IMG/VR virus record: IMGVR_UViG_3300013099_000044
Location: 1-37,669 of that record
Source: a virus
Direction: 5' to 3' (one strand)
Length of the DNA: 37,669 nucleotides
Under the pieces are notes generated by a model, which saw only the letters and a program-made list of their open reading frames with translations, was not told where the DNA came from and did not search any database. A program made the position numbers and the translations under genes. This document shows positions 7,870-34,757 of the stretch, one piece after another; position 1 is the first letter of the stretch; each line of letters begins with the position of its first letter.

Positions 7870-10539
7870 TCAGTCTCCTACTTTGCCTGATGCTATTTTA
7901 TCTGTTTGGCTCATGCCCTTTCCTCGTCTATTCATTCCTTTAACTCCGCCAGTTCTATTGGTTCCAGGTCTACTATTTGGTTTCTGTGAATCCAATACTT
8001 GTTGGGCTATCTCAGAGGCCGAACCTCTTTGTAGTAATTGAACATTTGTTTTTACTAAAGTCTTCTCTAGTGGAACATCAAATATCCTACTTAATAGTAA
8101 CTTCTTAGCGTATGGCATGTCCTCATTAGCTATATAAGCATCCATTGACTTCTCTTTTAAGTCATTAAAAAGGTCTGGATAAATCTCTTCCATTGCTGTT
8201 TTTTCCTCTAGTGAGATATACCCGTTAGAGAAATTCTCATAAACTGTTGATACGTCAAGTGCTGCAAGCCTAAATCTCTGGTATCTTGAAATCTCTGATG
8301 GAGCATTTGTTTTTGGTAATCTAGTTCCTAAAAAACTTGCAGCATTAAAGTATATAGCTAGAAAATCATCAAATACTTCTGGTTGTAAGTCCGCTAATGG
8401 AGTCTGGGTATTATACATAGTCTCAACAAAATCTTCCTGAGTTGCTCCAAGCTCCACGAGCTCTTGTTCAAATTCTTCTTTTGTGCTCAATAACTTTCCG
8501 AACTCTGACATCCCAATTGGTCGCGCCGTATTTATTGGGGACTTGATAAACCCCATTACTGAGTTGTCTAAAACCTGCATATAATTTATATGAGATTGTT
8601 GGAACCCTTTAAAGAAATCTCTTGCCATTAGTGGCCCGTACTTTCTTATTGCTCTCGCACCCATTGAACCGGCCATCCCACCAACAACAAGTCCTGGGAT
8701 TCCATAACCCCACAGCCCTAATCCTGCAGTGATAGCACTGGCAATGAAGCCGTTGTAGCCTTTGTCTTTTAATAGTTTGCCGACACCTATATTGGCCTGC
8801 TTTATTATTTTATATTTCATCTTTCCTGTTAAGTAATCATCTGTTCTTAACCTTATCGCATCTTTTATTCCATCATCTATTGGTAAGTCTAGCGTTTTTC
8901 TTACTCTCCCACCTATAGAAACCTTGTTCATTAATTCAATTATCTCTTTAGAGTTTTTTTCAGGTGATAAATCACCCTCAATCGCCCGCCTTAAATCAGT
9001 AAAATATCTTCTGCTTGTTTTGTCGCCACTGGCAAGTGCCATTTCAACTCTATTGTCCGCATCCTGTCTAAACCTCCATTTATCATGAAGTCTATTGCTT
9101 TCCTCATCAAAAAAGAAAGCAGCACTCGAATCTTTCTCACCAACGGAGGCTATAAGAGCGTCTATTTCTTTTTTCTTATCTCGCAATAGTGCTTTATCTC
9201 GCACACTAGTTTCTCCAGACTTTAGAGTAATTTCTCTTTTGAAGTGTTTATCGCTAAGTTTTTTCATTAGCTTTTGAATATCTTTGGTGTTAGCTGTAGC
9301 AGGAGATAGATAAGAAAACTCTGATGCTAAAATCTCGTCGATGGCCTCTAGTGAGAATGCTATATCTTCACCGACTTTCTTTTGAATATTGGACAAGGCA
9401 TCTGGCATCTTCTGAAAATCTTTCTCTGCCATCTCGATAACATTATCCATCACATCTTTTGCTACTTGAGCTGGTCGTACCTTATTTGCTACTCCATAAC
9501 CTTTCCATGATCTACTATTTCTCGTTACTATATCTCTCAGCTCAGTTCTAAGCGCAGGCTTGTCTATATTTAAAACTGTGCTATCCCAGTTGGTTATATT
9601 AACGTCCATCTCTGCTATGTCTAAGAGTCCGTTTCTTTTTGCTAGTCTTTTTCCTATAGCTGACTTTGCTCTCCCATATCCTGCTGATAAAACAGGGCCA
9701 GGCAATCCTATAATTCCCCCAAGACCGCCCATAAGGCCTACGTCTCTTGCTAATATCTCCGCAGAAAATCTCTCTGGGTAGATAAGCCCATTGCTTATTC
9801 CATGAACACCAGTTATTAGTGCGGCCTCGCCGCCATATCTAATATAGTTCTTCGCCATCTTTCCTATCATCGAGGCCGGAACCTTTGTCCCAAGTAATGT
9901 AGTCATTGCTTTTTCTGGAATTGTAAATGGCGCTGTTAGAGCTTTAGTTATAGGCCCTTTATGTGCCGCCCTCGTTGCCATCTTTCCTACGTTTTGACCA
10001 AAGAGTTTCCCTATAGCAACCCTCCCTGACGATCTCGTAAGCCCCTTCAATGACCAAAGAGTTTTACCACCTAATTGTGCGAGGCCTATCGCAGGGTTTA
10101 TAATAGATGCTGCTAGTGGTGCTACATACCCTAATGTTTGCCCAAGTTCTAATGAATCAGGATTGGCCTCATATAATTTTTCAACATAATCTCTTCCAAG
10201 TGCCGCAGAGGCAACTGCCTTACCAATCCCAAAGCTAAAAGTATCTGCCGCCCCTATAACTCCAGTGGCAAATTCTTGAGCAGGAGTTCCATATATAGCT
10301 TGTAAAGCCTCTTCGTTTTGGAATCTTTCTGAATCATTTGGGCTCTCCCACGAGTAACCCATATTGAATCTAACTCTTGCCTCTTCTGACGGAAAATTCT
10401 CTCTCCTCCCAGTGGGCGAGATACCTTTAATTGTTGTGCCTCCTTCAAATGATAGCGCGCCAGATGTAACAGAAGCTTCTACCTGGTTATCAGGTATTTC
10501 AAACTGCGTTGTCTCTCCGGGCCTATAAAGGATGGTCAC
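7870..10539 (-). CDS. Internal virion / DNA ejection protein (T7 gp16 position)
   Basis: 889 residues, the largest and third of a gp14-gp15-gp16-like series. It contains several Gly/Ala-rich hydrophobic stretches that could cross a membrane, near residues 95-115 (FATGVIGAADTFSFGIGKAVA), 135-155, 265-290 (GLMGGLGGIIGLPGPVLSAGYG) and 595-625 (GLGLWGYGIPGLVVGGMAG), separated by long charged helical regions. Such proteins leave the capsid with the DNA and form a conduit across the host envelope. I see no lytic transglycosylase motif, unlike T7 gp16. It starts at a GTG overlapping the previous stop (GTGA). Confidence 0.75.
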   Translation of the reverse strand: MTILYRPGETTQFEIPDNQVEASVTSGALSFEGGTTIKGISPTGRRENFPSEEARVRFNMGYSWESPNDSERFQNEEALQAIYGTPAQEFATGVIGAADTFSFGIGKAVASAALGRDYVEKLYEANPDSLELGQTLGYVAPLAASIINPAIGLAQLGGKTLWSLKGLTRSSGRVAIGKLFGQNVGKMATRAAHKGPITKALTAPFTIPEKAMTTLLGTKVPASMIGKMAKNYIRYGGEAALITGVHGISNGLIYPERFSAEILARDVGLMGGLGGIIGLPGPVLSAGYGRAKSAIGKRLAKRNGLLDIAEMDVNITNWDSTVLNIDKPALRTELRDIVTRNSRSWKGYGVANKVRPAQVAKDVMDNVIEMAEKDFQKMPDALSNIQKKVGEDIAFSLEAIDEILASEFSYLSPATANTKDIQKLMKKLSDKHFKREITLKSGETSVRDKALLRDKKKEIDALIASVGEKDSSAAFFFDEESNRLHDKWRFRQDADNRVEMALASGDKTSRRYFTDLRRAIEGDLSPEKNSKEIIELMNKVSIGGRVRKTLDLPIDDGIKDAIRLRTDDYLTGKMKYKIIKQANIGVGKLLKDKGYNGFIASAITAGLGLWGYGIPGLVVGGMAGSMGARAIRKYGPLMARDFFKGFQQSHINYMQVLDNSVMGFIKSPINTARPIGMSEFGKLLSTKEEFEQELVELGATQEDFVETMYNTQTPLADLQPEVFDDFLAIYFNAASFLGTRLPKTNAPSEISRYQRFRLAALDVSTVYENFSNGYISLEEKTAMEEIYPDLFNDLKEKSMDAYIANEDMPYAKKLLLSRIFDVPLEKTLVKTNVQLLQRGSASEIAQQVLDSQKPNSRPGTNRTGGVKGMNRRGKGMSQTDKIASGKVGD

Positions 10540-12296
10540 TTAGTCTTCCCTTTTCCCCAGCCGTTTTCGCTAAGGTCTGTTTTGAATGTGCCGATATTAT
10601 ATGTCAGTGGGTCTACTTTTATATAGAGTGACAGGTCTGTCCACATATTACTAAGCTCTCGCTCGTATAACTGTTGAAACATTTTCCACTTGTCATCCCC
10701 AAAATACCACTGACCAACCCCTTCTGTTATTTTTCCATTCTCAACACTTATTCCAAAGAAATCACCCAGGAGCTTGATCTCAACATCTGTAAAGTTTGCC
10801 CCCATGCCTTCTTTTGTCTTTGCCTTCATAATAAGATTTGCCATTATAGATTTGGCTTTCTTTCTTGAAGCTGATGGCCAGTTTGGAAAGAATATCTTAC
10901 CTGTTCCGGCGAATCCTTTATTTTCTTTAGCAAAATTGATAACGTCGTTAAATGCTTTTAAATAGGGTCTGTATTTGGTAAGTGTTTTATTGGCTTCCTT
11001 GTGAGCGTCTTTTCCTTTTGAAAAAAATCCAAACGTCGGTGTGTATTCTACAACTCTTTCTCTTCGCTCATCCTCTCTAACTAACTGTGGATTTACTCTA
11101 CCTTGTGGGTATTTAAAATTTGCTAATCCTAGTTTTTGTCTAGCTATTTTTGCTTCATCTAAGGCAACCTTTAATGACTCTATATTTTGTCGCCTTATAT
11201 CCGTCGATGCTGTTCTAGATAATACCTCTAGTCTCATCTTTGCCATATCTAGATATGCAGCTGATATTGCCGACTCAGAATCTACGTTCTTCCCGTAAGC
11301 ATTATCTATATGGCCTAGCATATTTGTTGCCACTTGATATTTCTTAAAGTTGATATTTCTATTTGCTTTTTGAGCTGATATATCCCTATCAATAGCTCCG
11401 TTTATATTTCTCATGGCCGCATTTAGATAACCAGGGCCGCCCATTCCTGCTAAAAATAAAGATACAAATGCGAATATCTTTCTTCCCGTAATTCCTTCAC
11501 CCATAAATCGCTCAGGATTAATCTTAGCCTCAGGAGAATTTAAAAGCTTCATTGCATATTTACTAGCTAGCTCTTGGTATTTATTTCGCTCTTTGTACGC
11601 ATCGTCTTTTGTCTTTTGTAGCACTGACATTCGAGTATTGTGATGGGCCACAAGCTCTTTCGATAAAGCCGCCTGTTTTTTATCTAAGTCAGCTTTGATT
11701 TTCTCACTTTCTATTAAGCTCTTTACCTTGGCCTCTTCTACTTTAAGGGTGGCATCGGCTATGTCACTCATCCCTTTCGTGTAAGCTGTTTCCTTGCCAT
11801 GGTCTTTTGCTATCGCTCCCCCTCCACTTCCTCCGCTATCCTTTGGTGGCGGAGAACTCTCTGGCTCCTTTTTTGGTGGCGGAGAACTCTCTGGCTCAGT
11901 TTTTTTACCTAAGTCACCTTTACCTCCTAATGCTTTATCTCTCTCGTTTAACTCTTCATCCGACATTAAAGAAGGGAGCTTGCCGGACGGGTCTAATTTC
12001 CCTTTTCTTGGCGTGTAGCCTGTAGAGCCTGACTCATTATCCTGCATGGCTGCTGATGGCTCTCTGTCGATCTTGGCCTCTCTAGTGCCTTGTAATGGAT
12101 CATTATTTATAATGGTGTCTGCTTCTTCTCCATATCCCATAGATGTTTGAGCAGGAGTCGCAACACCATATCCTTTAGGATTGTCATCTACATTTACAGA
12201 CTCGCCGAGATAATCATTTTCTTCTGGAACTTCAGAATAGTCCTCATTATCATGGTCACGAACTCTTTCTTTTGTTACGCCATATATTTTTGCCAT
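10536..12296 (-). CDS. Internal virion / ejection protein (T7 gp15 position)
   Basis: 586 residues. The first 190 are disordered and acidic/proline-rich, with a duplicated EPESSPPPKK element and a GGSGGG linker. Residues about 190-260 are a long coiled coil (KVEEAKVKSLIESEKIKADLD, DKKQAALSKELVAHHN). A short hydrophobic segment follows (FAFVSLFLAGMGGPGYL), then a helical C-terminal domain. Position between the small gp14-like and large gp16-like genes, plus this architecture, indicate a capsid-internal ejection protein. GAGGT precedes the ATG. Confidence 0.7.
   Translation of the reverse strand: MAKIYGVTKERVRDHDNEDYSEVPEENDYLGESVNVDDNPKGYGVATPAQTSMGYGEEADTIINNDPLQGTREAKIDREPSAAMQDNESGSTGYTPRKGKLDPSGKLPSLMSDEELNERDKALGGKGDLGKKTEPESSPPPKKEPESSPPPKDSGGSGGGAIAKDHGKETAYTKGMSDIADATLKVEEAKVKSLIESEKIKADLDKKQAALSKELVAHHNTRMSVLQKTKDDAYKERNKYQELASKYAMKLLNSPEAKINPERFMGEGITGRKIFAFVSLFLAGMGGPGYLNAAMRNINGAIDRDISAQKANRNINFKKYQVATNMLGHIDNAYGKNVDSESAISAAYLDMAKMRLEVLSRTASTDIRRQNIESLKVALDEAKIARQKLGLANFKYPQGRVNPQLVREDERRERVVEYTPTFGFFSKGKDAHKEANKTLTKYRPYLKAFNDVINFAKENKGFAGTGKIFFPNWPSASRKKAKSIMANLIMKAKTKEGMGANFTDVEIKLLGDFFGISVENGKITEGVGQWYFGDDKWKMFQQLYERELSNMWTDLSLYIKVDPLTYNIGTFKTDLSENGWGKGKTK
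11842..11897 (-). repeat. Two tandem 30-bp units inside the ejection protein gene
   Basis: The same 26 bases occur at 11842-11867 and 11872-11897 (period 30). On the minus strand they encode the repeated Glu/Pro/Ser-rich decapeptide EPESSPPPKK in the disordered N-terminal region. The near-identity at DNA level points to a recent in-frame duplication. Confidence 0.9.
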
Positions 12297-12304
12297 CTAT
12301 ACCT

Positions 12305-12733
12305 CTATATCATTCCACTTGCTGCACTACCTACCGCGCCTATTGCTGCTGTAGCAATGTCTCCGTTATGAGCCCCTGATTGGTATCCTGTGGCGTTTGA
12401 TATTTGACCAAACTGATGCCCCATTGCCATGCTCATGCCGCTTATCTGTTCTTGGGCCCTTGCTGTTGCCATTGACCCTAGAGACTGAGCTTGAATATTA
12501 CGGGCAGACTGCATTCCCTGCCTGCTCATTAAGGCCCTTTGAAATGGGTTCCTAGAGGACTTATAAGCAGACCGCATCTGAACACCTGCCAGGGACGCGT
12601 TCTTTTTTGCTTGCAATGCCGCAACTGACGGCATTTTACCGCTTTTCCACTCTTCGTATCTTTTGTTGGCCAAAGCAGATGCCCTTCTTGATTCTCGCGC
12701 CGCTGATTTCGCTGCCTTTTTCTTACCACCCAT
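12305..12733 (-). CDS. Small internal virion protein (T7 gp14 position)
   Basis: About 142 residues. The N-terminus is a basic Ala-rich helix (GGKKKAAKSAARESRRAS). The C-terminus is Gly/Ala/Met-rich and amphipathic (GQISNATGY, IATAAIGAVGSAASGMI), as in pore-forming internal core proteins of podoviruses. AGGAG stands six bases before the ATG at 12733; an ATG at 12736 is nearly as good. It is followed by two larger proteins of the ejection series, which is the main reason for the assignment. Confidence 0.7.
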   Translation of the reverse strand: MGGKKKAAKSAARESRRASALANKRYEEWKSGKMPSVAALQAKKNASLAGVQMRSAYKSSRNPFQRALMSRQGMQSARNIQAQSLGSMATARAQEQISGMSMAMGHQFGQISNATGYQSGAHNGDIATAAIGAVGSAASGMI

Positions 12734-13085
12734 CATGTTCTCCTGATTCAAATCTTCTTATTTTTTTATTTTGAACCACAACCTCATTGTTTGTTGCCGA
12801 TATAGGCTCAAATCCCACTCTATTAAAGACTAACAGTTTTTGTGCTCCATTTGGTAAATATAGCTCTACAATTGCCTCTACTACCTTAACTTCCATTTTT
12901 ATACATACATCGACTAAAAGATTCCATAACTCGTATGCCTTTTTCTGCCCCCTGTATTTCCGATATGTATAGAAGTGTTGGACAAATACTGCATTATTTT
13001 CAGGCTCGTGCTTGAATGAGATAAAACCATGGTCTGTGACTATAGTTTCACACCCGTACAAGTCTTTCATAAAATCTTCAATCAT
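12723..13085 (-). CDS. GNAT-like acetyltransferase-fold protein in virion operon
   Basis: 120 residues with the outline of a minimal GNAT fold: strand pairs FISFKHEP and NAVFVQHFYTYR, an acetyl-CoA-loop-like KYRGQKKAYELWNLL, then VKVVEAIVELYLPNGAQKLLVFNRVGFEP, which matches the late beta4-alpha4 'xxxGF' part. The canonical Q/RxxGxG/A loop is degenerate, so it may bind a ligand or partner rather than catalyse. Small GNAT-like genes between the nozzle and ejection genes occur in other podoviruses. AAGGGAAG precedes the ATG. Confidence 0.65.
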   Translation of the reverse strand: MIEDFMKDLYGCETIVTDHGFISFKHEPENNAVFVQHFYTYRKYRGQKKAYELWNLLVDVCIKMEVKVVEAIVELYLPNGAQKLLVFNRVGFEPISATNNEVVVQNKKIRRFESGEHDGW

Positions 13086-25481: not shown

Positions 25482-25707
25482 TCCGGCCATCCTTCATATC
25501 TCTATCTGGTTTTACATTGTTATTAGGAAGTATAGGCCTTGAGCTGACTTCCTCGATAGCTTCGATCTCTTCTTGTAGATATCTTTCAATTTCTCTAACC
25601 ACTTCTAATCTCCCACTTAAAATATAACCGCGTTTATTATGCCTGTTATCCCCCATCTCCATGTATATCAATTTCTTTTTTTGGTTCAATAATTTCTGCA
25701 ATGTCAT
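25459..25707 (-). CDS. Hypothetical helical protein after terS
   Basis: Up to 82 residues. The ATG at 25707 has GAGGAA seven bases upstream but overlaps the small terminase gene by 62 bases; ATGs at 25662 or 25656 would reduce the overlap but lack a good ribosome site. The core is a charged helix (LEVVREIERYLQEEIEAIEE) followed by a disordered Asp/Asn/Pro tail. No family recognised. Confidence 0.55.
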   Translation of the reverse strand: MTLQKLLNQKKKLIYMEMGDNRHNKRGYILSGRLEVVREIERYLQEEIEAIEEVSSRPILPNNNVKPDRDMKDGRNEDNSSN

Positions 25708-26218
25708 TTGATATTTCCTCTGTTGTTACTTTTTCATACGTAGCTAATGTAGGGACTAATCCGAGCTCTTTTGATTCACCAACGGCTATACCCATTTCTT
25801 TGGCCACTTCTAATAACTCAGAATCACCAAGCTTCTCTAATGTCTTTTTAAATTCGTAATGTCTGACATCTCTCCACTCTTGCGGCTTTCTGTTTTTTAA
25901 CCAAAACTGTTGCGCCTGAACATTTGGTGGGTAGTATTTCTCATAAGTGTTTACAACACCCTCTCTATCAACAAACGACTCCTCTTTGGTATAACCAGTA
26001 GCACTTTTAAATGCTGCAAATTCAACCTCTGCATCGGCCATTTCTCTAAACAGCGCAACCTTCTTCTTTGACTTTGAAATCATCCTCTTAACAGACGATA
26101 TGTTCATATCTAGGATTGCTGCTATCTCTCTAACACTATATCCTAAAGTGAAGAAAAACAGCATTGCTCGCTTATTCTTCTCGCGCTCATCTTTAATTGA
26201 TAGCTTTTTATCCGTCAC
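25646..26218 (-). CDS. terS: Terminase small subunit
   Basis: 190 residues. An N-terminal helix-turn-helix (YSVREIAAILDMNISSVKRM, residues 27-46) should bind the packaging initiation site. The middle (MADAEVEFAAFKSATGYTKE, then YYPPNVQAQQFWLKNRKP and QEWRD, residues 60-117) is the signature of a widespread phage small-terminase family. The C-terminal tail is acidic and may contact the large subunit. GTG start overlapping the upstream stop (GTGA). The large subunit gene lies four small genes downstream. Confidence 0.85.
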   Translation of the reverse strand: MTDKKLSIKDEREKNKRAMLFFFTLGYSVREIAAILDMNISSVKRMISKSKKKVALFREMADAEVEFAAFKSATGYTKEESFVDREGVVNTYEKYYPPNVQAQQFWLKNRKPQEWRDVRHYEFKKTLEKLGDSELLEVAKEMGIAVGESKELGLVPTLATYEKVTTEEISNDIAEIIEPKKEIDIHGDGG

Positions 26219-26479: not shown

Positions 26480-26707
26480 GTGAAGGATAAAGAAGACATC
26501 ACCAATGATTTAATGCTACTCGAAACCAAGTTATTAAACCCTCTGCACTCGTTATGGGCCGATTTAACATTCTTTAAAGATATGGTTAAAGACGTGACTA
26601 TATCTACCGCACTAGATGGCTATGTGAAACAACTTGCTAGAGATTATAAAACCTACAATGCAATCAAGAATAAAATTCTCAATGATCTACCTATAGATAA
26701 AAGCTAA
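26480..26707 (+). CDS. Lone plus-strand helical protein
   Basis: 75 residues starting at GTG, with AGGAG five to six bases upstream. Entirely helical by appearance (ITNDLMLLETKLLNPLHSLW, VKQLARDYKTYNAIKNKIL). It is the only plus-strand gene in the minus-strand region 1580-34421. It diverges from the zinc-ribbon gene and ends with a four-base overlap on the end of the convergent basic-protein block. Function unknown. The position would allow it, or its transcript, to influence the late operon. Confidence 0.65.
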   Translation: MKDKEDITNDLMLLETKLLNPLHSLWADLTFFKDMVKDVTISTALDGYVKQLARDYKTYNAIKNKILNDLPIDKS

Positions 26708-27018
26708 TGATCCACCACTCTACTGCGTTCTGATCGTGGGTTATTCCTATCATAAGGCTTCTTAGGATGAGGAAATCTCGGTTTATCATAAAGGTCTTTC
26801 TTCGGCTTTAACCTATTCCCATCTTCGTATCCAGTTAATTTCTTACGCTTTCTAAGCAGCCTCTTCCATTTTATAGTAGAGCCTCTCGCGTTATCGTTTA
26901 TCCTTTTTAAAACCCTTTTCTTTTTATTTTTAGACGAGTAATAGTCCTCAGTAGGTGTGTTCCTTGGATCATACCTTTGGCTTGGTTGTTCTCCTAAATC
27001 TCTTTCTCTGCTTCGCAT
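26704..27018 (-). CDS. Very basic protein of the Lys/Arg-rich block
   Basis: 104 residues from the ATG at 27018 (AGGGAG seven bases upstream). Strongly basic and probably disordered, with Arg/Lys clusters (SSKNKKKRVLKRINDNARG, WKRLLRKRKKL) and a Pro/Arg-rich tail (RFPHPKKPYDRNNPRSERSR). No family recognised. Last gene of the block; its stop overlaps the convergent plus-strand gene. Nucleic-acid binding is likely from composition alone. Confidence 0.6.
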   Translation of the reverse strand: MRSRERDLGEQPSQRYDPRNTPTEDYYSSKNKKKRVLKRINDNARGSTIKWKRLLRKRKKLTGYEDGNRLKPKKDLYDKPRFPHPKKPYDRNNPRSERSRVVDH

Positions 27019-27152
27019 ATGCTTACTCCCTCTGGCATAGTGCCATTTTCTTGTAGTGAATGTACCTCTTCGTCCGTTAATGGCCTGGTAAGGCCGCATC
27101 TTACTAAAAACTGGTCTATTTCATAGAAATTATCTTTCGTGCTAGTATCCAT
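26994..27152 (-). CDS. Small acidic protein within the basic block
   Basis: 52 residues from the ATG at 27152. Unlike its neighbours it is acidic (MDTSTKDNFYEIDQF, PLTDEEVHSLQENGTMPEGV). It overlaps both neighbours by 11 and 25 bases. It might neutralise or chaperone the basic proteins, but that is only a suggestion from charge and gene order. The ribosome site is weak (GGAG ten bases upstream). Confidence 0.5.
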   Translation of the reverse strand: MDTSTKDNFYEIDQFLVRCGLTRPLTDEEVHSLQENGTMPEGVSICEAEKEI

Positions 27153-27390
27153 ACTTTTTAATCTCCGCGTATGTCGTGCTAACTGGGTCTTGCCCACCAC
27201 CAGATTGTGCTATTTTATTAAACCCGTCTTGTAATCCTGCTATAGCATCTTTTTTCTGTTTAGCTTTTTTTTCATCATCAGTCATGTCTGTATCTTTATA
27301 CCTAACATCTCTCAATGCCTTTAAGAATCCTCCAGACTTTTTTCCTCCACCGCCAGTTTTTCCGGCAGTCATTTTATTTCCAATTCCCAT
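27142..27390 (-). CDS. Basic-block protein with FLKALRD motif
   Basis: 82 residues. The ATG at 27390 has GGAGG five bases upstream. The N-terminus is Gly/Lys-rich (KTGGGGKKSGG), directly followed by the block's shared motif FLKALRD (residues 22-28). A mixed-charge helix follows (DEKKAKQKKDAIAGLQDGF) and the protein ends in YAEIKKYGY. No family recognised. Confidence 0.6.
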   Translation of the reverse strand: MGIGNKMTAGKTGGGGKKSGGFLKALRDVRYKDTDMTDDEKKAKQKKDAIAGLQDGFNKIAQSGGGQDPVSTTYAEIKKYGY

Positions 27391-27391
27391 A

Positions 27392-27949
27392 CTATCCTCC
27401 AAAGACACCAATGTTTTTAGTTCTCTTTTTCTTTCTAGCATCCTCTTTCTTCTTAGCAAGGGCCTGTCTAGCAGCGCTTTCTTTGGCCCATTTGTCTAGC
27501 GCCTTTTTCCCATGGGGATTATTTTTTGTCACATCTTTTCCGCCCACAAATACTTTAGTAGAGTCTTTTGGAACGGCCTTTAACCTGGCCATTAGTTCAG
27601 CTCTCTCATCCATGAGTTTAACTCTCTTGTTTAATTTAGTCGCCTCAAATTTTGCTTTAGCACTAGTTGGCTTTGTCTTCCTAGCAACAGCAAGCTTTGC
27701 TTTAGATTTTGATGCCGGAGCACGTTTTACAGCGTCTAATTGTAATTTTTTCAACCTAGCATGCCCTTTTTTTATCTTATAACTATCATATTCCCTTTTT
27801 ACTGTTCTATCACTAGCAAGGCCGACTCTTTTTGAATACTCTTTAAATGTCTCACCTTTTGCGTAACTAGGTCTTGGCTTTTTTTTCTTGTTATATATAT
27901 CGCCAATCTTGTCCGCTATCCTCGTACTAACTCCTAAATCACCAGCCAT
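27392..27949 (-). CDS. Lys-rich basic-block protein
   Basis: 185 residues, rich in Lys and Ala (RAPASKSKAKLAVARKTKP, SAARQALAKKKEDARKKKR), superficially like histone H1 or other DNA-condensing tails. Residues 25-60 (PRPSYAKGETFKEYSKRVGL) could form a small helical domain. It starts 11 bases inside the preceding small gene. Composition suggests DNA or RNA binding. No homologue recognised. Confidence 0.6.
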   Translation of the reverse strand: MAGDLGVSTRIADKIGDIYNKKKKPRPSYAKGETFKEYSKRVGLASDRTVKREYDSYKIKKGHARLKKLQLDAVKRAPASKSKAKLAVARKTKPTSAKAKFEATKLNKRVKLMDERAELMARLKAVPKDSTKVFVGGKDVTKNNPHGKKALDKWAKESAARQALAKKKEDARKKKRTKNIGVFGG

Positions 27950-28118
27950 TTTTCTTCCCCCTTAGTGCTTCTTTAAAGTTTCTCGCACCTCTTTCTTTTC
28001 TAGTTAAACCTTTTTTCTTTTTCTTTCCCTTTGGTTGGGTAAGCCATTGCCCTGTTACCGTATCAAAAATTGCTTTTGCTTTCTCTGCATATGTTCTCTC
28101 TTTCCATTCAAGTGACAT
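27939..28118 (-). CDS. 59-aa basic protein with FKEALRG motif
   Basis: A short gene with a strong AGGAGG and a start coupled to the upstream stop (TAATG at 28118). It encodes 59 residues with 18 Lys/Arg against 6 Asp/Glu, including a five-Lys run (KGKKKKKGL) and the shared motif FKEALRG at residues 48-54. It overlaps the next gene by 11 bases. It is just under common length cut-offs and would easily be missed by automatic annotation. Confidence 0.65.
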   Translation of the reverse strand: MSLEWKERTYAEKAKAIFDTVTGQWLTQPKGKKKKKGLTRKERGARNFKEALRGKKNGW

Positions 28119-29263
28119 TAAAATCCTCCTTTTCCGAATCTTGTTAATCCAGAACTTTTTATTTTTAATGGGCCGCCAGTTATCTTGATAGTTTTTATTT
28201 TTTTAAGCCTTGATCCACTCTCTGTCCTTGGGTGGCCTTTCAGTATCTTTACTAACTTGATCCTCTTCCTACGGGCAGTCTTTGTTATATTTACTTTTTC
28301 TCGATCACGGACTCGCCCCTTATTAGCTTTCTTAACGTGTTCTTTTAACCGTTCAGGATTTTCCTCTTGCCATTTTTTAGTTTGTTTTTTTCTAATTTTA
28401 GCTTGCTCTTTTAGAGAGTTAGTCCCAACTCCTTCTTTTTTTATCTTCTTTCTTCTCCCTTCATTCGCCCTTACTTTTTCTCTTTTAGATATAGTCCCTG
28501 AGGCCTCGTTCTCTCTCAACGGAGTAAAGGTATCCGACCTATTTGCCCCACCCTTTCTATTTATCTCTGCGACTGGTAAGATTATACCACCACGTCCCTT
28601 TTTTAGAGTAGAGTATTTTCTTCCGAATTCTTTATATTCTCCGCCCTTTACTTTTGTATTACGTATTTCTTTCGCTACTTTTTTAGCACTTAATAATTTA
28701 CTCACATACCCTTTTTTCACAACATTTCTAATATCTGGGTTTGCTAGTTTTTTTGGTGTTACTTCTGGGTACTTATTTAATGGATCACCTATAAGAATCT
28801 TAGGCTTCATTTTACTGACCCTTTTTTTGAAATTCTTTTTATTTTTATGCTTTCCTCCGAACCTTTTTAATACAGGGCCACTTCTAGTCTTCCCAGTTCT
28901 AAATGCTTCGTTACCAGTTTTCCCAGTGTTTTTCATAGCTGTTTGGTAGTCTTTATTGGCCAATTGTTTCACTGTACGGCCAGTGCCTTTTGCAAACTCT
29001 CTCATGTATCTAGTAGATGCAACCTTTCTACTCATACCGCCAGTTGGTTGACGGTACGCCATCTTAGCTTTTCTAACTCTATCCTTTCTTCTTACTGTCT
29101 TCATTTCCTCAATAGATAGCTTCTCGCCTTTAGTTTGATACTTACGCTTCATTGAATGAAATCTTTTTCCCATGCGCTTAACATGCTCGTCTGTGCTCAC
29201 AACCTTAGTTCTTTTTCTAAGTGCTTCTGCTAGACGTTTCTTAACATATTGTTTTTCACTCAT
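28118..29263 (-). CDS. Large highly basic protein (381 aa)
   Basis: Lys/Arg-rich throughout (MSEKQYVKKRLAEALRKR, HVKRMGKRFHSMKRKY, ARRKRIKLVKILKG) with few acidic residues, and no hydrophobic core typical of enzymes. Some segments with regular hydrophobics (RGGIILPVAEINRKG) could fold. ATGA coupling upstream and TAATG downstream place it firmly in the operon. Probably a nucleic-acid-binding or virion-internal protein, inferred only from charge and context. Confidence 0.6.
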   Translation of the reverse strand: MSEKQYVKKRLAEALRKRTKVVSTDEHVKRMGKRFHSMKRKYQTKGEKLSIEEMKTVRRKDRVRKAKMAYRQPTGGMSRKVASTRYMREFAKGTGRTVKQLANKDYQTAMKNTGKTGNEAFRTGKTRSGPVLKRFGGKHKNKKNFKKRVSKMKPKILIGDPLNKYPEVTPKKLANPDIRNVVKKGYVSKLLSAKKVAKEIRNTKVKGGEYKEFGRKYSTLKKGRGGIILPVAEINRKGGANRSDTFTPLRENEASGTISKREKVRANEGRRKKIKKEGVGTNSLKEQAKIRKKQTKKWQEENPERLKEHVKKANKGRVRDREKVNITKTARRKRIKLVKILKGHPRTESGSRLKKIKTIKITGGPLKIKSSGLTRFGKGGF

Positions 29264-29718
29264 TCTGTTAATGCTCCAAGAACTACCTTTAGCCTTTGCT
29301 TCTTCATGGCAGGCCTTTGCTTAAATGACTTTCCTTGTATCTTACGATATCTAGATTCCATTTTTGTTCTATTTGCCCTAACCTTTTTAAGATCACTTGT
29401 AGAATACTGGGCCACTGTGTCCTGTTTTCTACTCCTGTCTCTAATAAGCGCATTAGAAATTGCAGACCTCTGACTTCGACTTGCTGCTGGCATTGAATAC
29501 TTCATTCCTTCATTAAACCCAGACCGAAGCCTGCTCTCGCCTGACCTGCCAAATATTCCTCTATCCTGGTAGGAGTCGTATGGGTATCTGCCAAAAGCAT
29601 CGCTTTTATGACCAGAATTTTTTCTTGCTTCTGCCCACTTTACTCCGCCAACCTTATCGCTTATTTTCTTTGCTAAATTAGAAGTCTTTACTCCTCTCAA
29701 TGCTTTTTTGAAACTCAT
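29260..29718 (-). CDS. Basic-block protein with N-terminal FKKALRG motif
   Basis: 152 residues. The shared motif FKKALRG is at residues 3-9, followed by TSNLAKKISDKVGGVKW and a Ser/Arg-rich middle (YDSYQDRGIFGRSGESRLRS) and a basic tail (RSFKQRPAMKKQRLKVVL-type). The start is coupled to the preceding stop. No family recognised. Confidence 0.6.
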   Translation of the reverse strand: MSFKKALRGVKTSNLAKKISDKVGGVKWAEARKNSGHKSDAFGRYPYDSYQDRGIFGRSGESRLRSGFNEGMKYSMPAASRSQRSAISNALIRDRSRKQDTVAQYSTSDLKKVRANRTKMESRYRKIQGKSFKQRPAMKKQRLKVVLGALTE

Positions 29719-30077
29719 TATTGTTCTTCCAATGTTGTTCTACCACTATACACCATTCTTAAATCAGGCAATTCGTGTCCCTCACTATTTCTCCACATAT
29801 GTAGAGCAAACGGATGGAGATTTACATAGGCCTCTTTATTAGGATGGTATTGAACAACTGTCACACACTCCCCCCATATAAGATTCTTAACTTTACACAT
29901 CTCATCCCAAGTAGGGCATCTAGTAGTTGTGCTAACTGTACAATGTTCCCAATCAGGATCAGCACTAAATATAGTTATATCTAATCCTTCAAATCTAAAC
30001 ATTCCAGACTGCTGACCGCTACCAGATATAAAAGGTGCATCTTTGATACGATACTGTTCCATTTCCTCTGTTATCAT
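29718..30077 (-). CDS. DUF7694-type phage protein
   Basis: 119 residues with the pattern WEHCTVSTTTRCPTWDEMC, then VKNLIWGECVTVVQYHP and YVNLHPFALHMWR, which I recognise as a family of small phage proteins of unknown function (DUF7694, named from memory). It is not basic, so it stands out within this block. The conserved Trp, Cys and His residues (CPTWDEMC, QYHP, HPFALHMW) could bind a metal or substrate. The ATG at 30077 is used; a second ATG five codons on lacks spacing for a ribosome site. Confidence 0.7.
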   Translation of the reverse strand: MITEEMEQYRIKDAPFISGSGQQSGMFRFEGLDITIFSADPDWEHCTVSTTTRCPTWDEMCKVKNLIWGECVTVVQYHPNKEAYVNLHPFALHMWRNSEGHELPDLRMVYSGRTTLEEQ

Positions 30078-30081
30078 ATCT

Positions 30082-30288
30082 CTATATGCTCCCGCTTAAG
30101 GCCTTAGTTATTCCTCCTGCCTGAGCTCCGCTACCACCGCCGCCTCTTGGTACTATTTTATATTTATCGTTTATTTCGCTCTCATCAGTTAACCCATCTC
30201 CATCTCTATTTGAAGCCGAAGTAATCGGTGTTGCTGTTTCTGATGGGCCTCGTATTGCCCGTTTAATTTTTCTTGCTGCTCCACCCAT
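30082..30288 (-). CDS. 68-aa basic-block protein with IKRAIRG motif
   Basis: The N-terminus carries a variant of the shared motif (IKRAIRG, residues 8-14), then an EF-hand-like acidic segment (DGDGLTDESEIND) and a Gly-rich C-terminus (PRGGGGSGAQAGG, KALSGSI). The ribosome site and ATG come from a 29-bp element that is repeated at 30731-30759. The start is coupled to a 14-codon ORF by TAATG. DGDGLTDESE resembles calcium-binding thrombospondin type-3 or dockerin-like loops, but it is a single copy. Confidence 0.6.
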   Translation of the reverse strand: MGGAARKIKRAIRGPSETATPITSASNRDGDGLTDESEINDKYKIVPRGGGGSGAQAGGITKALSGSI

Positions 30289-30332
30289 TAGTATAACCTT
30301 CCTCTTTCAGTTCTTTTCTTTATTTCACTCAT
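30288..30332 (-). CDS. 14-aa coupled mini-ORF (MSEIKKRTERGRLY)
   Basis: The ATG overlaps the upstream stop (ATGA at 30329-30332) and the TAA overlaps the next ATG (TAATG at 30288). The last nine residues, KRTERGRLY, are identical to the last nine of the 472-residue protein because the DNA is a 29-bp duplicate. It may be translated only to deliver ribosomes to the next gene; the duplicated stretch contains that gene's Shine-Dalgarno sequence (GAGGAAGG). Confidence 0.4.
   Translation of the reverse strand: MSEIKKRTERGRLY
30289..30317 (-). repeat. 29-bp direct repeat, copy B (ribosome-site module)
   Basis: Identical over 29 bases to 30731-30759. On the minus strand it encodes KRTERGRLY-stop and contains GAGGAAGG eight bases before the start of the 68-residue gene. 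Confidence 0.9.
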
Positions 30333-30730
30333 TTTAATAAATCTTCTGGGTCACGAACCCACTGGTCGCCAACTCCAGGGCCTCCACCACCTCTGAGCGC
30401 GCCTTTAAATGATTTCTTCCCACCTTTTACGGCCCTGCTTAGGGATTGTGCGTTTGCTTTTTTTAGACTCGCGCCTGAATCAGCTTTAGTAACCTTAGCT
30501 TTTAGAATTCTTACTCTAAGATTTAAATTTTTTGATCTAGCTATTCTCGCAGCATCGTCTGGTGCTTTTTTAAATGTACTGCCTTTTTTATAACCTTTGA
30601 ATGACGGGTCTTTCTTCCACTTTTTATAGTGGGCCATCAAAGTATTATCATAAGCAGATTTTGCAGTAGCTTCTCTTCTGGCGATTCTATCTCCAAAGTT
30701 CTTTCTAACCCACCCTATATAACCTTCCAC
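30329..30730 (-). CDS. Basic-block protein with FKGALRG motif
   Basis: 133 residues. Mostly basic helix (WVRKNFGDRIARREATAKSA, LMAHYKKWKKDPSFKGYKK). Near the C-terminus the shared motif FKGALRG (108-114) runs into a Gly-rich linker and a short acidic end (GVGDQWVRDPEDLLK). GTG start overlapping the previous TAG by one base, with its ribosome site supplied by copy A of the 29-bp repeat. No family recognised. Confidence 0.6.
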   Translation of the reverse strand: MEGYIGWVRKNFGDRIARREATAKSAYDNTLMAHYKKWKKDPSFKGYKKGSTFKKAPDDAARIARSKNLNLRVRILKAKVTKADSGASLKKANAQSLSRAVKGGKKSFKGALRGGGGPGVGDQWVRDPEDLLK

Positions 30731-32148
30731 TAGTATAACCTTCCTCTTTCAGTTCTTTTACCACCTGATTTAATCCAACCTTGTTTCTTCCAACTTCTAT
30801 ACTGTGGACTCTTTACTATTTGACTTCTGCTATACTCTCTAGGGATTCCTCCACCACCATCTTGGATTCCTTTCCACTTAGGCATTTTCCATGCAGGCTT
30901 CTGACCACCTTTTTTACTGCTACCTTTATATTTAGTCTTCTTTGGAAGAATTAATTTAGTAACAACTTTTCGTTTAATCTTCTTTTCTAATGGTTTTTGT
31001 GGAGCATTCTTTATACCCTGTTTATGAAGTGTTGGTGCAGGCCCTAACTTAATCTTCTTATTCGCATAACCAAAAGTAAAACTATCTTTTTGCTTAGGAG
31101 TAAAGACTGTTCTTCCTGGTTTCGGGTCTGCCTTTGTTAATACCTTATCAACGTTACCACCAACCTTGCTGCTCATGTTTTTTAAGCGCTTAGTTTTGAC
31201 ACCCATCAGAGACTTATAAGGGTCTTTAGTTGAGGTATAGTTTCCACTGTGCTTGTCGATACTTTTATATATCTTATTCATGTCCTTTCCACGCCGTATC
31301 TTCTTTTGGTATGGAGAGTCCTTTTTCATTCGTTCAAACATATTATAGGCGGCGTACCCTGCCCCAACTCCTTGAACAACTTTACCGAGAGCTCCCCATG
31401 GAACCTTTCTGGCGATCTTGTTAATCTTGCTTCCTAGTCCTGGTGTTTTAGGTTTAAGGACTCTTGATTTTGCATTTATTGATCCAGTTATTTTTGGTTG
31501 CTTCTTATGCCCTATAGTGGTTCTTGGCAGGACTCTTCCAACAATTCTAGTGTTACCTATCTTCTTTGGAGTATTGAAGTCTTTATAGGCGTGTGTTTTT
31601 CTGGGAGCTTTCACAACTCCTCTTCCAGTGGCCTCTTGCCTAATAGGTGTAGTCCAATTTGGACGTTTACTAGACTTTCTTCCGAGCTGTCTCGATCTTC
31701 TTACTTTCGGAGGCGCTAATGCCTTCATAGGTTTGATACCGTTTTTTAGAACCAGTGTTGGTTTGTATGGAGCTTTAACTGCATTCTTTCTAGCATCACT
31801 GAAGACACCTTTGGTTATGCGCTCTCTCTTCTTAGGGACTAGCTTTAAACTTCCTTGCTTTGCCTGGTGCCTGGATAATCTCTTTGAGTAGTCAATCTTC
31901 TTTAGATTCTTCTTACCTAACTGACCTTTGAGCTTCTTTGGAGTACGTTTTCTAAACTTCTTCTCAGTCTTATTGATAAATGGCTCTTGCACTGACATAC
32001 CTGGGCGAGTGAAGGTTTCCATAGTTTTAGGTGCATCTGCTCCCAGCTTTTTGAGCTCTCTCAAGTAGTCCTTATTATCAGTTGATTTGTATTGTTCGAG
32101 TAGCCATTTCTTGTGGTTATAGACTGGTGGGCTCTTCTTCTTTGCCAT
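30730..32148 (-). CDS. Large highly basic protein (472 aa), first gene of the late block
   Basis: AGGAG stands six bases before the ATG. The protein is Lys/Arg/Pro-rich along its length (TEKKFRKRTPKKLKGQLGKK, PPKVRRSRQLGRKSSKRP), with one hydrophobic Gly/Ala segment near residues 245-270 (VPWGALGKVVQGVGAGYAAY) that could be a membrane-active helix, and a GGGG linker near residue 435. It is the first gene after the 32-kb control region. Composition resembles a nucleic-acid-condensing or DNA-entry protein. No homologue recognised. Confidence 0.6.
   Translation of the reverse strand: MAKKKSPPVYNHKKWLLEQYKSTDNKDYLRELKKLGADAPKTMETFTRPGMSVQEPFINKTEKKFRKRTPKKLKGQLGKKNLKKIDYSKRLSRHQAKQGSLKLVPKKRERITKGVFSDARKNAVKAPYKPTLVLKNGIKPMKALAPPKVRRSRQLGRKSSKRPNWTTPIRQEATGRGVVKAPRKTHAYKDFNTPKKIGNTRIVGRVLPRTTIGHKKQPKITGSINAKSRVLKPKTPGLGSKINKIARKVPWGALGKVVQGVGAGYAAYNMFERMKKDSPYQKKIRRGKDMNKIYKSIDKHSGNYTSTKDPYKSLMGVKTKRLKNMSSKVGGNVDKVLTKADPKPGRTVFTPKQKDSFTFGYANKKIKLGPAPTLHKQGIKNAPQKPLEKKIKRKVVTKLILPKKTKYKGSSKKGGQKPAWKMPKWKGIQDGGGGIPREYSRSQIVKSPQYRSWKKQGWIKSGGKRTERGRLY
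30731..30759 (-). repeat. 29-bp direct repeat, copy A
   Basis: The end of the 472-residue gene. It encodes its C-terminal KRTERGRLY and stop, and provides GAGGAAGG for the following GTG start. The same 29 bases recur at 30289-30317. Confidence 0.9.
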
Positions 32149-32661: not shown

Positions 32662-32735
32662 CCCTATCCAGGTTCTCTTTAGTTCAATGCTTGCTTATCG
32701 GGTTTGCATGGTTCCCAGTCTCAAGCTTGGATGTT

Positions 32736-32756
32736 AAAAAGCCCCGTTTCCGAGGC
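32736..32756 (-). terminator. Intrinsic terminator of the second leftward operon
   Basis: Minus strand: stem GCCTCG / CGGGGC with a GAAA tetraloop (six pairs, one G-U), followed at once by five T. It ends the operon coming from 34421 and insulates it from the late operon that starts beyond the control region. Confidence 0.8.
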
Positions 32757-32796
32757 CCTTCAGTTATCAATGTTACTTACACCTTCTCTAGTGCTG

Positions 32797-32919
32797 TTAT
32801 TTATACTTAATTGTCACATTCCTACCTTGGCTTAATAGATGGTGAAAGAATGCTTCAGCATCCTCCCAATATCTAAACTCCCCTAGGTATGTCTTTCCTT
32901 CGATTATTTCGTAAAGCAT
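32797..32919 (-). CDS. 40-aa hypothetical protein
   Basis: Strong AGGAGG before the ATG. Sequence MLYEIIEGKTYLGEFRYWED followed by AEAFFHHLLSQGRNVTIKYK reads as a small alpha/beta unit. It begins one base after the previous stop and precedes the terminator. No family recognised, but coding is well supported for so short a gene. Confidence 0.6.
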   Translation of the reverse strand: MLYEIIEGKTYLGEFRYWEDAEAFFHHLLSQGRNVTIKYK

Positions 32920-32920
32920 G

Positions 32921-33061
32921 CTAATCCTCCTTTTTATAAAATGCTTCTGCTATTGCTAGCAAATACAGACCATCTAATTTTGCTGGTCCCTTGGGCATCC
33001 TGTTGATTATTTCATCTATCAGTTTTTTCATTTCCTCTTTGGTTTCTGGTATGTAAAACAT
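32921..33061 (-). CDS. 46-aa hypothetical helical protein
   Basis: The ATG is coupled to the preceding stop (TAATG). Sequence MFYIPETKEEMKKLIDEIIN, then RMPKGPAKLDGLYLLAIAEA, is a helical hairpin by appearance. It carries the ribosome site of the next gene at its end. No function known. Confidence 0.55.
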   Translation of the reverse strand: MFYIPETKEEMKKLIDEIINRMPKGPAKLDGLYLLAIAEAFYKKED

Positions 33062-33135
33062 TATTCAATTCCCCAATCTTCTAAGTTAGTGCCCATGTCT
33101 CCGGCAAGTATCTCTAGAGCGTCTTTGATGTCCAT
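33061..33135 (-). CDS. 24-aa mini-ORF
   Basis: Encodes MDIKDALEILAGDMGTNLED plus WGIE. It starts just after the stop of the 150-residue gene and ends with TAATG onto the next gene. The amphipathic acidic helix and tight coupling favour real translation. The function is unknown. Confidence 0.45.
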   Translation of the reverse strand: MDIKDALEILAGDMGTNLEDWGIE

Positions 33136-33137
33136 GA

Positions 33138-33590
33138 TTAAACCCTATCCGCTTTGATAGTTGGCACTTGCAAGGAAGTCTTTGGACTTGCTCTATAACT
33201 ATTCTCCTCTTTTAAGTCTTTTAGATAGTAATCTATCAACAGCCTTCTATTGCCATTATCCAAGTAACTAAACCACCTAGTTACATCGCCCTTAAAGACA
33301 CCAAAGCATTTGTCATACTGGTAACTGAATTCACCTCTTTCAATCCCAAATATGTCATTAAACACGTTCAAGCTGTTATAAGAGCATTTTATCCTTAAAG
33401 TCAGCTCTATGAATTGCCCAAAGGTCAGCTTTCCAGCTTCCTTCGCTTCTAGTTTTTCCAGTGTCTTGATAGCTGATTCATACTTATCGCAAGCACTTTC
33501 AAGCTTATCCCTAGCACTATCAGCATAACTGAGGCCGTTCTCAAGTTGCTTTCTTAAAGTGTAAAACCTTCTCTTTGTCGCTTCATTCAT
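33138..33590 (-). CDS. Hypothetical 150-aa protein
   Basis: The N-terminal 55 residues form a coiled coil (FYTLRKQLENGLSYADSARD, YESAIKTLEKLEAKEAGKL). The rest is a mixed domain (FIELTLRIKCSYNSLNVF, VTRWFSYLDNGNRRLLIDYY). No family recognised. A 154-bp gap upstream with a palindrome at 33706-33723 may carry its own promoter and operator. The ribosome site is weak. Confidence 0.6.
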   Translation of the reverse strand: MNEATKRRFYTLRKQLENGLSYADSARDKLESACDKYESAIKTLEKLEAKEAGKLTFGQFIELTLRIKCSYNSLNVFNDIFGIERGEFSYQYDKCFGVFKGDVTRWFSYLDNGNRRLLIDYYLKDLKEENSYRASPKTSLQVPTIKADRV

Positions 33591-33705
33591 CTATCTAAAC
33601 CTTGTAAATGGTGAGCTTAATTGCTCCCAGTGAATATACTTTTATGTCAGATGGTATTGGATTGCAAGCTTAAAGGGGTGTCAGCTTTAATTATTTGGAT
33701 ATAGT

Positions 33706-33723
33706 TGTTTGATATGCCAAACA
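33706..33723. promoter_or_regulatory. Operator-like palindrome TGTTTG-N6-CAAACA
   Basis: Perfect 6-bp arms with a 6-bp spacer in the gap upstream of the leftward 150-residue gene. Size and symmetry suit a dimeric repressor, though the gap contains no obvious promoter hexamers. Confidence 0.4.
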
Positions 33724-33744
33724 GTTGTTAGGTTATTGATATCA

Positions 33745-34233
33745 TTAGAATGGTATGTCTTCGGCGGTATAATTTACTTGTTCATTGGAGGCCGTAATAT
33801 TTGGGACATTATCGGGCACTTTATCGTTGTTTTTTGTTATTTTTTCCATCTTTTCACGCTGTTTCTTCTCATTTTTAGCGGTAAATATGAGCAAAGAGAG
33901 CCTTGTCTCTGGTAATGAAAAGAGCATTGAGTCTGATTCAACCTTTATTGAAGATGGTAGGTAAGTGAGCAACCTCTTCCAATCCCATTCTACATTTGAG
34001 GCTATAAATTCTTTTTCCTTAGTTGAGAGATATTCTTCCGGTTTACTTGTTAAGTCTAATGCCCAGGCCTTAACTTTTACCCTATCTGAAAAGTTGGCAA
34101 CTATTTCAGCGAAGATATTTATCCTAGAGCTTTCCTTCTTAACTACAACTGCGCCTGGTGGTAAATCTTCCCTTCTTATTTTGACTAATAACAAATCGCC
34201 ACTAGTTTCTTCAAATATTAGGTTTTTTAACAT
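33745..34233 (-). CDS. SSB-like protein with EDIPF C-terminal tip
   Basis: 162 residues, close to the length of bacterial single-stranded DNA-binding proteins. It ends in a disordered Asn/Pro tail and the exact tip AEDIPF, as in E. coli SSB (DDDIPF), the peptide that docks SSB partners. The N-terminal 115 residues are beta-rich (GDLLLVKIRREDLPPGAVVV, RVKVKAWALDLTS) and could be a divergent OB fold, but they do not show the canonical SSB sequence. Either a phage SSB or a mimic of its tip. It is coupled to the gene upstream by TAATG. Confidence 0.6.
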   Translation of the reverse strand: MLKNLIFEETSGDLLLVKIRREDLPPGAVVVKKESSRINIFAEIVANFSDRVKVKAWALDLTSKPEEYLSTKEKEFIASNVEWDWKRLLTYLPSSIKVESDSMLFSLPETRLSLLIFTAKNEKKQREKMEKITKNNDKVPDNVPNITASNEQVNYTAEDIPF

Positions 34234-34421
34234 TACAAATTTCTCCTTGCCATTTTTCTGGCCTTATAAAGAGCATCAAGCCTTTCCTGTCTTTCAGCTC
34301 TCTCCTGGTTGTCTTTCTTAATCTCTTCTCTTATTAGAATCTCATTAACATTAGGTAAAGAAACTCTGTAAGTGATATGACCTTTTATGCCTGATCGTAT
34401 TATTCCTTTAGTCCTTCCCAT
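34233..34421 (-). CDS. Small basic protein upstream of SSB-like gene
   Basis: 62 residues. The ATG at 34421 is chosen because AAGGA lies four bases upstream; an ATG four codons earlier has no ribosome site. A short strand region (GIIRSGIKGHITYRVSLPNV) is followed by a long basic helix (RAERQERLDALYKARKMARR). First gene of this leftward operon. Possibly DNA- or RNA-binding; no family recognised. Confidence 0.6.
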   Translation of the reverse strand: MGRTKGIIRSGIKGHITYRVSLPNVNEILIREEIKKDNQERAERQERLDALYKARKMARRNL

Positions 34422-34757
34422 TTTATCCTTCATTGATTGTCAGCTAAAAAATTAGCATGGTATACCTAGCGAGTAAATAAAAAGATTGCCTTACTGCTCA
34501 CCCATGAGAGGGATTCGCAGAAAGATTAAGATTTAAGAGGGCTTTTGGGCCTGCATTTAGGATTACGGCCAAAACCTAAAAAGAAAGAAGAAAAAGAAAG
34601 AAGTATCTTATAGCCTGGCATAAAGTATAGCCTAGCATGGATTTTACGATATTACAATAATAGTTTCTACACTAAACTAAATAGCAAAGCACTCAAATTA
34701 ATTAACACTTGATTAAATGGTTAACCAGTGTATTGTCAGACAAAAGGAGAGTCAAAC
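34422..34757. promoter_or_regulatory. Divergent control region between early operons
   Basis: 336 bp without genes, between leftward and rightward operons. It holds a small hairpin GCTAA-AAAA-TTAGC (34443-34456), an 8-bp palindrome GGTATACC (34459-34466), a purine-rich run, and two 13-bp direct repeats TATAGCCTGGCAT / TATAGCCTAGCAT (34609-34621, 34626-34638). Close to the rightward genes is a possible promoter, TTGATT (34709-34714), 16 bp, TATTGT (34731-34736). An imperfect inverted repeat ACACTtG/CcAGTGT spans it, suggesting repression. Confidence 0.45.

Follow-up and report, generated by a model that had tools for sequence, protein, structure and literature searches.

The DNA packaged by small tailed phages is thought to be neutralised mainly by cations and polyamines. 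Adenovirus core proteins V, VII and mu, several small Arg/Lys-rich proteins of a eukaryotic virus, could condense virion DNA and resemble the locus described here in general character. In phage T4, basic internal proteins are present at ~300 copies each, have only a short targeting sequence in common, touch the DNA phosphate through lysines, and vary among relatives, being poorly conserved (PMC9026906, PMC3012670). The Dar proteins of phage P1 also invite comparison as accessory, head-borne and DNA-defending proteins, in their case with no common targeting consensus (PMC9024508); the likeness is one of description, and the best-studied Dar protein, DarB, is a 250-kDa protein unlike those reported below. 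The head of SU10 (Kuravirus), a phage of related portal and capsid type, holds several internal proteins (gp20-24).

The window analysed here, 37,669 bases constituting a single virus record, belongs to a putative podovirus, judging from its SU10-type portal and capsid, which combines a real, unique and coupled cassette of basic proteins with an unusually acidic putative scaffold (Table 1). We tentatively favour the view that this accessory, lineage-specific block encodes DNA-binding cargo that enters the prohead and stays with the packaged genome in the manner of T4 internal proteins. If so, charge-based cargo loading, mainly known from T4, can be bolted as a module onto a 38-kb phage, and an acidic tract plus a short motif would provide a simple, portable rule for spotting packaged proteins in sequence.

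A coupled cassette of basic proteins

The block comprises 11 minus-strand genes over 5.4 kb (26704-32148), and every ORF was confirmed at its stated size, including the embedded acidic 52-aa gene and DUF7694-type 119-aa gene. The claimed coupling was likewise confirmed, with neighbours overlapping or lying 1-4 nt apart at ATGA, TAATG and TAGTG junctions; the 133/68 junction is coupled only when an intervening 14-codon ORF is counted, the two genes being otherwise 40 nt apart. Using a synonymous-codon score trained on nine structural genes, the annotated frame scored best in 10 of the 11 block genes, and a plausible Shine-Dalgarno sequence precedes most of them. A chimeric contig or non-coding A-rich DNA might be suspected from a single metagenomic record whose second copy was not found, but the agreement of the block with its flanks in codon usage, coupling and GC makes such an artefact highly improbable.

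Table 1 Features of the window discussed in the text
Feature	Position	Strand	Remarks
Candidate ejection proteins (148, 586, 889 aa)	7870-12751		Tail region
Putative scaffold, 271 aa	19970..20785	-	Poly-acidic tract aa ~69-108
Major head protein		-	phrog_14242, E 1e-9
SU10-type portal		-	PF23899, E 2e-12
Large terminase		-	phrog_2, E 3e-21
Terminase small-subunit-like protein	25646-26218	-	phrog_309, E 5e-20
75-aa ORF	26480-26707	+	Between block and terminase genes; AGGAG ribosome site
104-aa Arg/Lys-rich protein	26704..27018	-	Net +19
52-aa acidic protein	26994..27152	-	Net -8
82-aa mildly basic protein	27142..27390	-	Net +6; motif variant GFLKALRD
185-aa basic protein	27392..27949	-	Net +36
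59-aa basic protein	27939..28118	-	Net +12; C-terminal NFKEALRG motif
381-aa basic protein	28118..29263	-	Net +86; charge beyond composition
152-aa basic protein	29260..29718	-	Net +26; N-terminal MSFKKALRG motif
119-aa DUF7694 protein	29718..30077	-	Net -8; E 9e-24; sole block gene with known relatives
68-aa protein	30082..30288	-	Net +3; N-terminal KIKRAIRG motif
33-bp direct repeat, copy 2	30285..30317	-	97% identical; ahead of 68-aa gene, within 14-codon ORF
14-codon ORF MSEIKKRTERGRLY	30288-30332	-	Between 133- and 68-aa genes, via ATGA and TAATG overlaps; repeats 472-aa C-terminus
133-aa basic protein	30329..30730	-	Net +21; GTG start; C-terminal SFKGALRG; 33-bp direct repeats on both sides
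33-bp direct repeat, copy 1	30727..30759	-	Encodes 472-aa C-terminus KRTERGRLY, ribosome site and start codon of 133-aa gene
472-aa basic protein	30730..32148	-	Net +105; YKSLMGVKTKRLKNMSSKVGG inside, resembles 152-aa N-terminus
Terminator hairpin	32735-32762	-	12 bp stem, GAAA loop, U-run; shuffle z -3.2; 0/200 shuffles as stable

The net charge of the block sums to +298. In 1.74 Mb of sequence from 148 other phage loci, the highest 5.4-kb interval reached +238, a value due to spurious antisense ORFs on a GC-rich contig. Measured against the net charge expected from the position-specific base composition of each gene, the 472-aa protein stood at +4.6 sd, the 185-aa at +4.2, the 381-aa at +3.8, the 133-aa at +3.2 and the 152-aa protein at +1.9, while the small proteins were unexceptional (+0.8 to +1.2 sd for 59, 82 and 104 aa; -0.3 for 68 aa). 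Basicity as an artefact of A-richness or base composition was rejected for the large proteins (472, 381, 185 and 133 aa), which lie 3.2 to 4.6 sd above expectation. These four are the most extreme members; the description "extremely basic" does not suit the 68- and 82-aa proteins, whose charges (net +3 and +6) are mild. Structure prediction, proposed in the initial annotation, covered the 472- and 381-aa proteins and was made without homologues, with mean pLDDT of 48 and 58; the former is predicted to be mostly disordered around a central amphipathic, Gly-containing helix near aa 239-277, and the latter to form mainly isolated helices. In the 68-aa protein, NRDGDGLTDESE weakly resembles a calcium-binding stretch of TSP3 type (PF18884 E 0.03; phrog_28896 E 0.012).

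Distribution across databases and relatives

No homologue was detected for the 472-, 381-, 152- and 133-aa proteins among IMG/VR viral contigs, for the 472-aa protein among GTDB genomes, for the 472-, 381-, 152-, 185- and 68-aa proteins among phages, or for the 472- and 381-aa proteins among plasmids and PDB sequences. Homology to ribosomal or host proteins, raised beforehand as a counter-case, did not emerge: none of the basic proteins matched a Pfam or NCBIfam family, nor did PHROG provide a match. The only assignment was that of the 119-aa gene to DUF7694 (PF24746; 83.5 bits vs a curated cut-off of 27), a family on which our literature search found no paper. When DUF7694 was used as an anchor for the proposed gene-neighbourhood search, none of 80 loci had a comparable block; one apparent basic neighbour, at locus L115, was rejected as antisense ORFs in GC-rich DNA. 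In Pseudomonas phage LKO4 (L170 3875-4240), the DUF7694 gene is the last before the terminase genes, as if the family were sometimes placed at the early/late border.

Relatives retrieved by terminase and capsid searches share the terminase (32-48% identity in close members) as well as the portal, scaffold and capsid proteins (37-56%). The basic block is absent from the eight compared here (G001, G003-G005, G007-G010), whose 32-37 kb records include portal, scaffold and capsid genes: residues in basic ORFs numbered 0-346 and were mostly scattered, vs 1,951 in the window. DUF7694 is absent from 13 relatives, but also from the control genomes, which makes this weak evidence. G001, the nearest relative, has opposite-strand genes beside its terminase small-subunit gene and nothing block-like. 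Since these relatives do without the block, sequence comparison indicates that it is an accessory insertion, accounting for ~14% of the record. The statement that no podovirus module of this kind is known agrees with our results: the families are unrecognised, the block is accessory and without precedent in our searches, and among the genomes searched it occurs in the window phage only. A search of the capsid protein against GTDB genomes, aimed at the host, returned no match.

The 33-bp repeat bounding the 133-aa gene suggests that block genes may have been added one by one. Such piecemeal insertion would also fit the view that the locus gathers orphan genes, evolving fast or of recent origin, which share no common function and might each, for instance, counter a host defence. 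So would the total lack of homologues in our searches and the fact that T4 internal proteins are varied anti-restriction proteins (PMC3012670). However, charge, coupling and motif are common to most members, making this a distinctly unlikely account. PADLOC likewise returned no match, although its library of bacterial defence proteins makes it a poor test for anti-defence genes.

The acidic scaffold, the shared motif and proposed prohead loading

Prohead loading is pointed to by two features, the uniquely acidic scaffold and a common FKxALRG motif. The 271-aa protein is named a putative scaffold from its position between the portal and capsid genes and its conservation in relatives, rather than from a database assignment. 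It carries a net charge of -48 and reaches 25 net acidic residues per 40 aa; for 16 homologues the two values run from -11 to -34 and from 7 to 15. These homologues are unevenly related, include many close marine kin and so do not amount to 16 independent comparisons. The acidic tract of the putative scaffold occupies the place of an NPRELLSRLD-type segment found in most homologues. By the same measure, T4 gp67 (net -25) has 24 acidic residues per 40 aa, close to the value of the putative scaffold, and gp22 (net -28) has 12, while the T4 internal proteins are mildly basic (+2 to +9).

FKxALRG or near variants occur in five block proteins (152, 133, 59, 68 and 82 aa), at N-terminal, C-terminal or internal positions, and are absent from the rest of the window proteome. 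The copies are encoded by mostly different synonymous codons, and therefore do not stem from recent duplication of the DNA. The 472- and 152-aa proteins are joined by a looser copy, 62% over 21 positions. A scan of 2,908 ORFs belonging to other loci for the strict motif returned no hit, the pattern having been written after the fact from the block proteins, and shuffles equalled the motif-discovery score in 24/600 (two partners), 6/600 (three) and 4/600 (four) cases; the recurrence of the motif may thus be taken as moderate to modest evidence.

Taken together, these features resemble T4 IPI, IPII and IPIII with gp22/gp67, in that a variable basic set with a short common sequence accompanies an unusually acidic prohead core protein. 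The parallel would be functional, not homologous. The block proteins have no sequence relation to T4 internal proteins and no PHROG or Pfam match to internal-protein families, and the strongly basic members (+12 to +105) far exceed the T4 range. They also lack an MKTYQEFIAEA-type N-terminal targeting sequence with a protease site, FKxALRG being mostly non-N-terminal, and they form a single cassette, proposed to be co-transcribed, whose packaging is putative and for which no maturation protease was recognised.

Under the cargo model, one translationally coupled mRNA would yield the proteins, the coupling being visible in the genes and the expression putative. The acidic tract of the scaffold, together with the shared FKxALRG helix, would then pull them into the prohead, as charge complementarity and motif recurrence suggest; this proposed recruitment draws on a correlation within one genome. 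As the scaffold exits and DNA enters, Lys/Arg side chains would bind the DNA, and the proteins might finally be ejected alongside it, either protecting it or acting on the host, a role after ejection that is speculative. Several observations count against this model: the block is not adjacent to the head genes, the proteins scanned included no recognisable prohead protease, motif placement varies where the T4 sequence is strictly N-terminal, and the charge of the proteins suits RNA or host DNA equally well.

The initial interpretation is partly supported: the block is accessory, unprecedented and, DUF7694 apart, free of known families. The DNA-condensing or DNA-entry function originally proposed is possible, and the acidic scaffold and shared motif make it more specific by pointing to the prohead. 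A condensing variant, in which highly basic disordered proteins co-packaged through the acidic tract and an FKxALRG docking motif would compact head DNA like an adenovirus core, seems unlikely. An entry variant would make the block proteins additional ejection proteins that enlarge the podovirus ejection apparatus, in keeping with the Gly-rich amphipathic helix of the 472-aa protein and with SU10, alike in portal and capsid, which has five ejection proteins in its head (PMC9509320). Yet the block lies away from the tail and ejection genes, its proteins are neither similar nor homologous to the candidates already present in the tail region, and relatives do without it, all of which renders this variant quite improbable.

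Transcriptional setting and the intracellular alternative

The main rival to prohead cargo, and a possible one, is that the block proteins never enter the virion and bind nucleic acids inside the cell, in takeover of the host nucleoid, protection of replicating phage DNA, or as RNA chaperones or antiterminators. Such intracellular binding is nearly as likely as recruitment by the scaffold. High positive charge and low predicted order would suit it, as would a transcription unit of the block's own, after a terminator and separate from the terminase genes. It leaves the uniquely acidic scaffold and the common short motif unexplained, however, and no nucleic-acid-binding domain, including bacterial nucleoid-associated domains (HU, H-NS and others), was recognisable in the block proteins.

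As to that transcription unit, a strong hairpin ends the upstream minus-strand unit, with the minus-strand genes at 32797-34433 beyond it, so the start of the block is probably the start of its own transcript. A sigma-70 scan gave no excess of promoter-like sites over shuffles, and there were no Rfam matches. The block was initially placed as the first late genes ahead of terminase. It does lie upstream of terminase, but across a 283-bp gap containing an opposite-strand ORF, and with further minus-strand genes upstream; this gap and these genes tell against a firm placement, and its status as the first late genes is at most plausible. The opposite-strand 75-aa ORF had no codon-usage support, and a search for its conservation found none.

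The terminase small-subunit-like protein itself has a sigma-70 region 4-like helix-turn-helix at its N-terminus (PF08281 E 1e-8). Near one end of the window, a GGTCTA-like hexamer repeat array (341-571, + strand) reads as an Arg-Ser repeat ORF, and in relative G001 a different low-complexity array, with Thr-Leu-Met ORFs, lies at both contig ends (L071 1-205, L072 15788-16008); such arrays perhaps mark a repeat-rich terminus where assemblies break.
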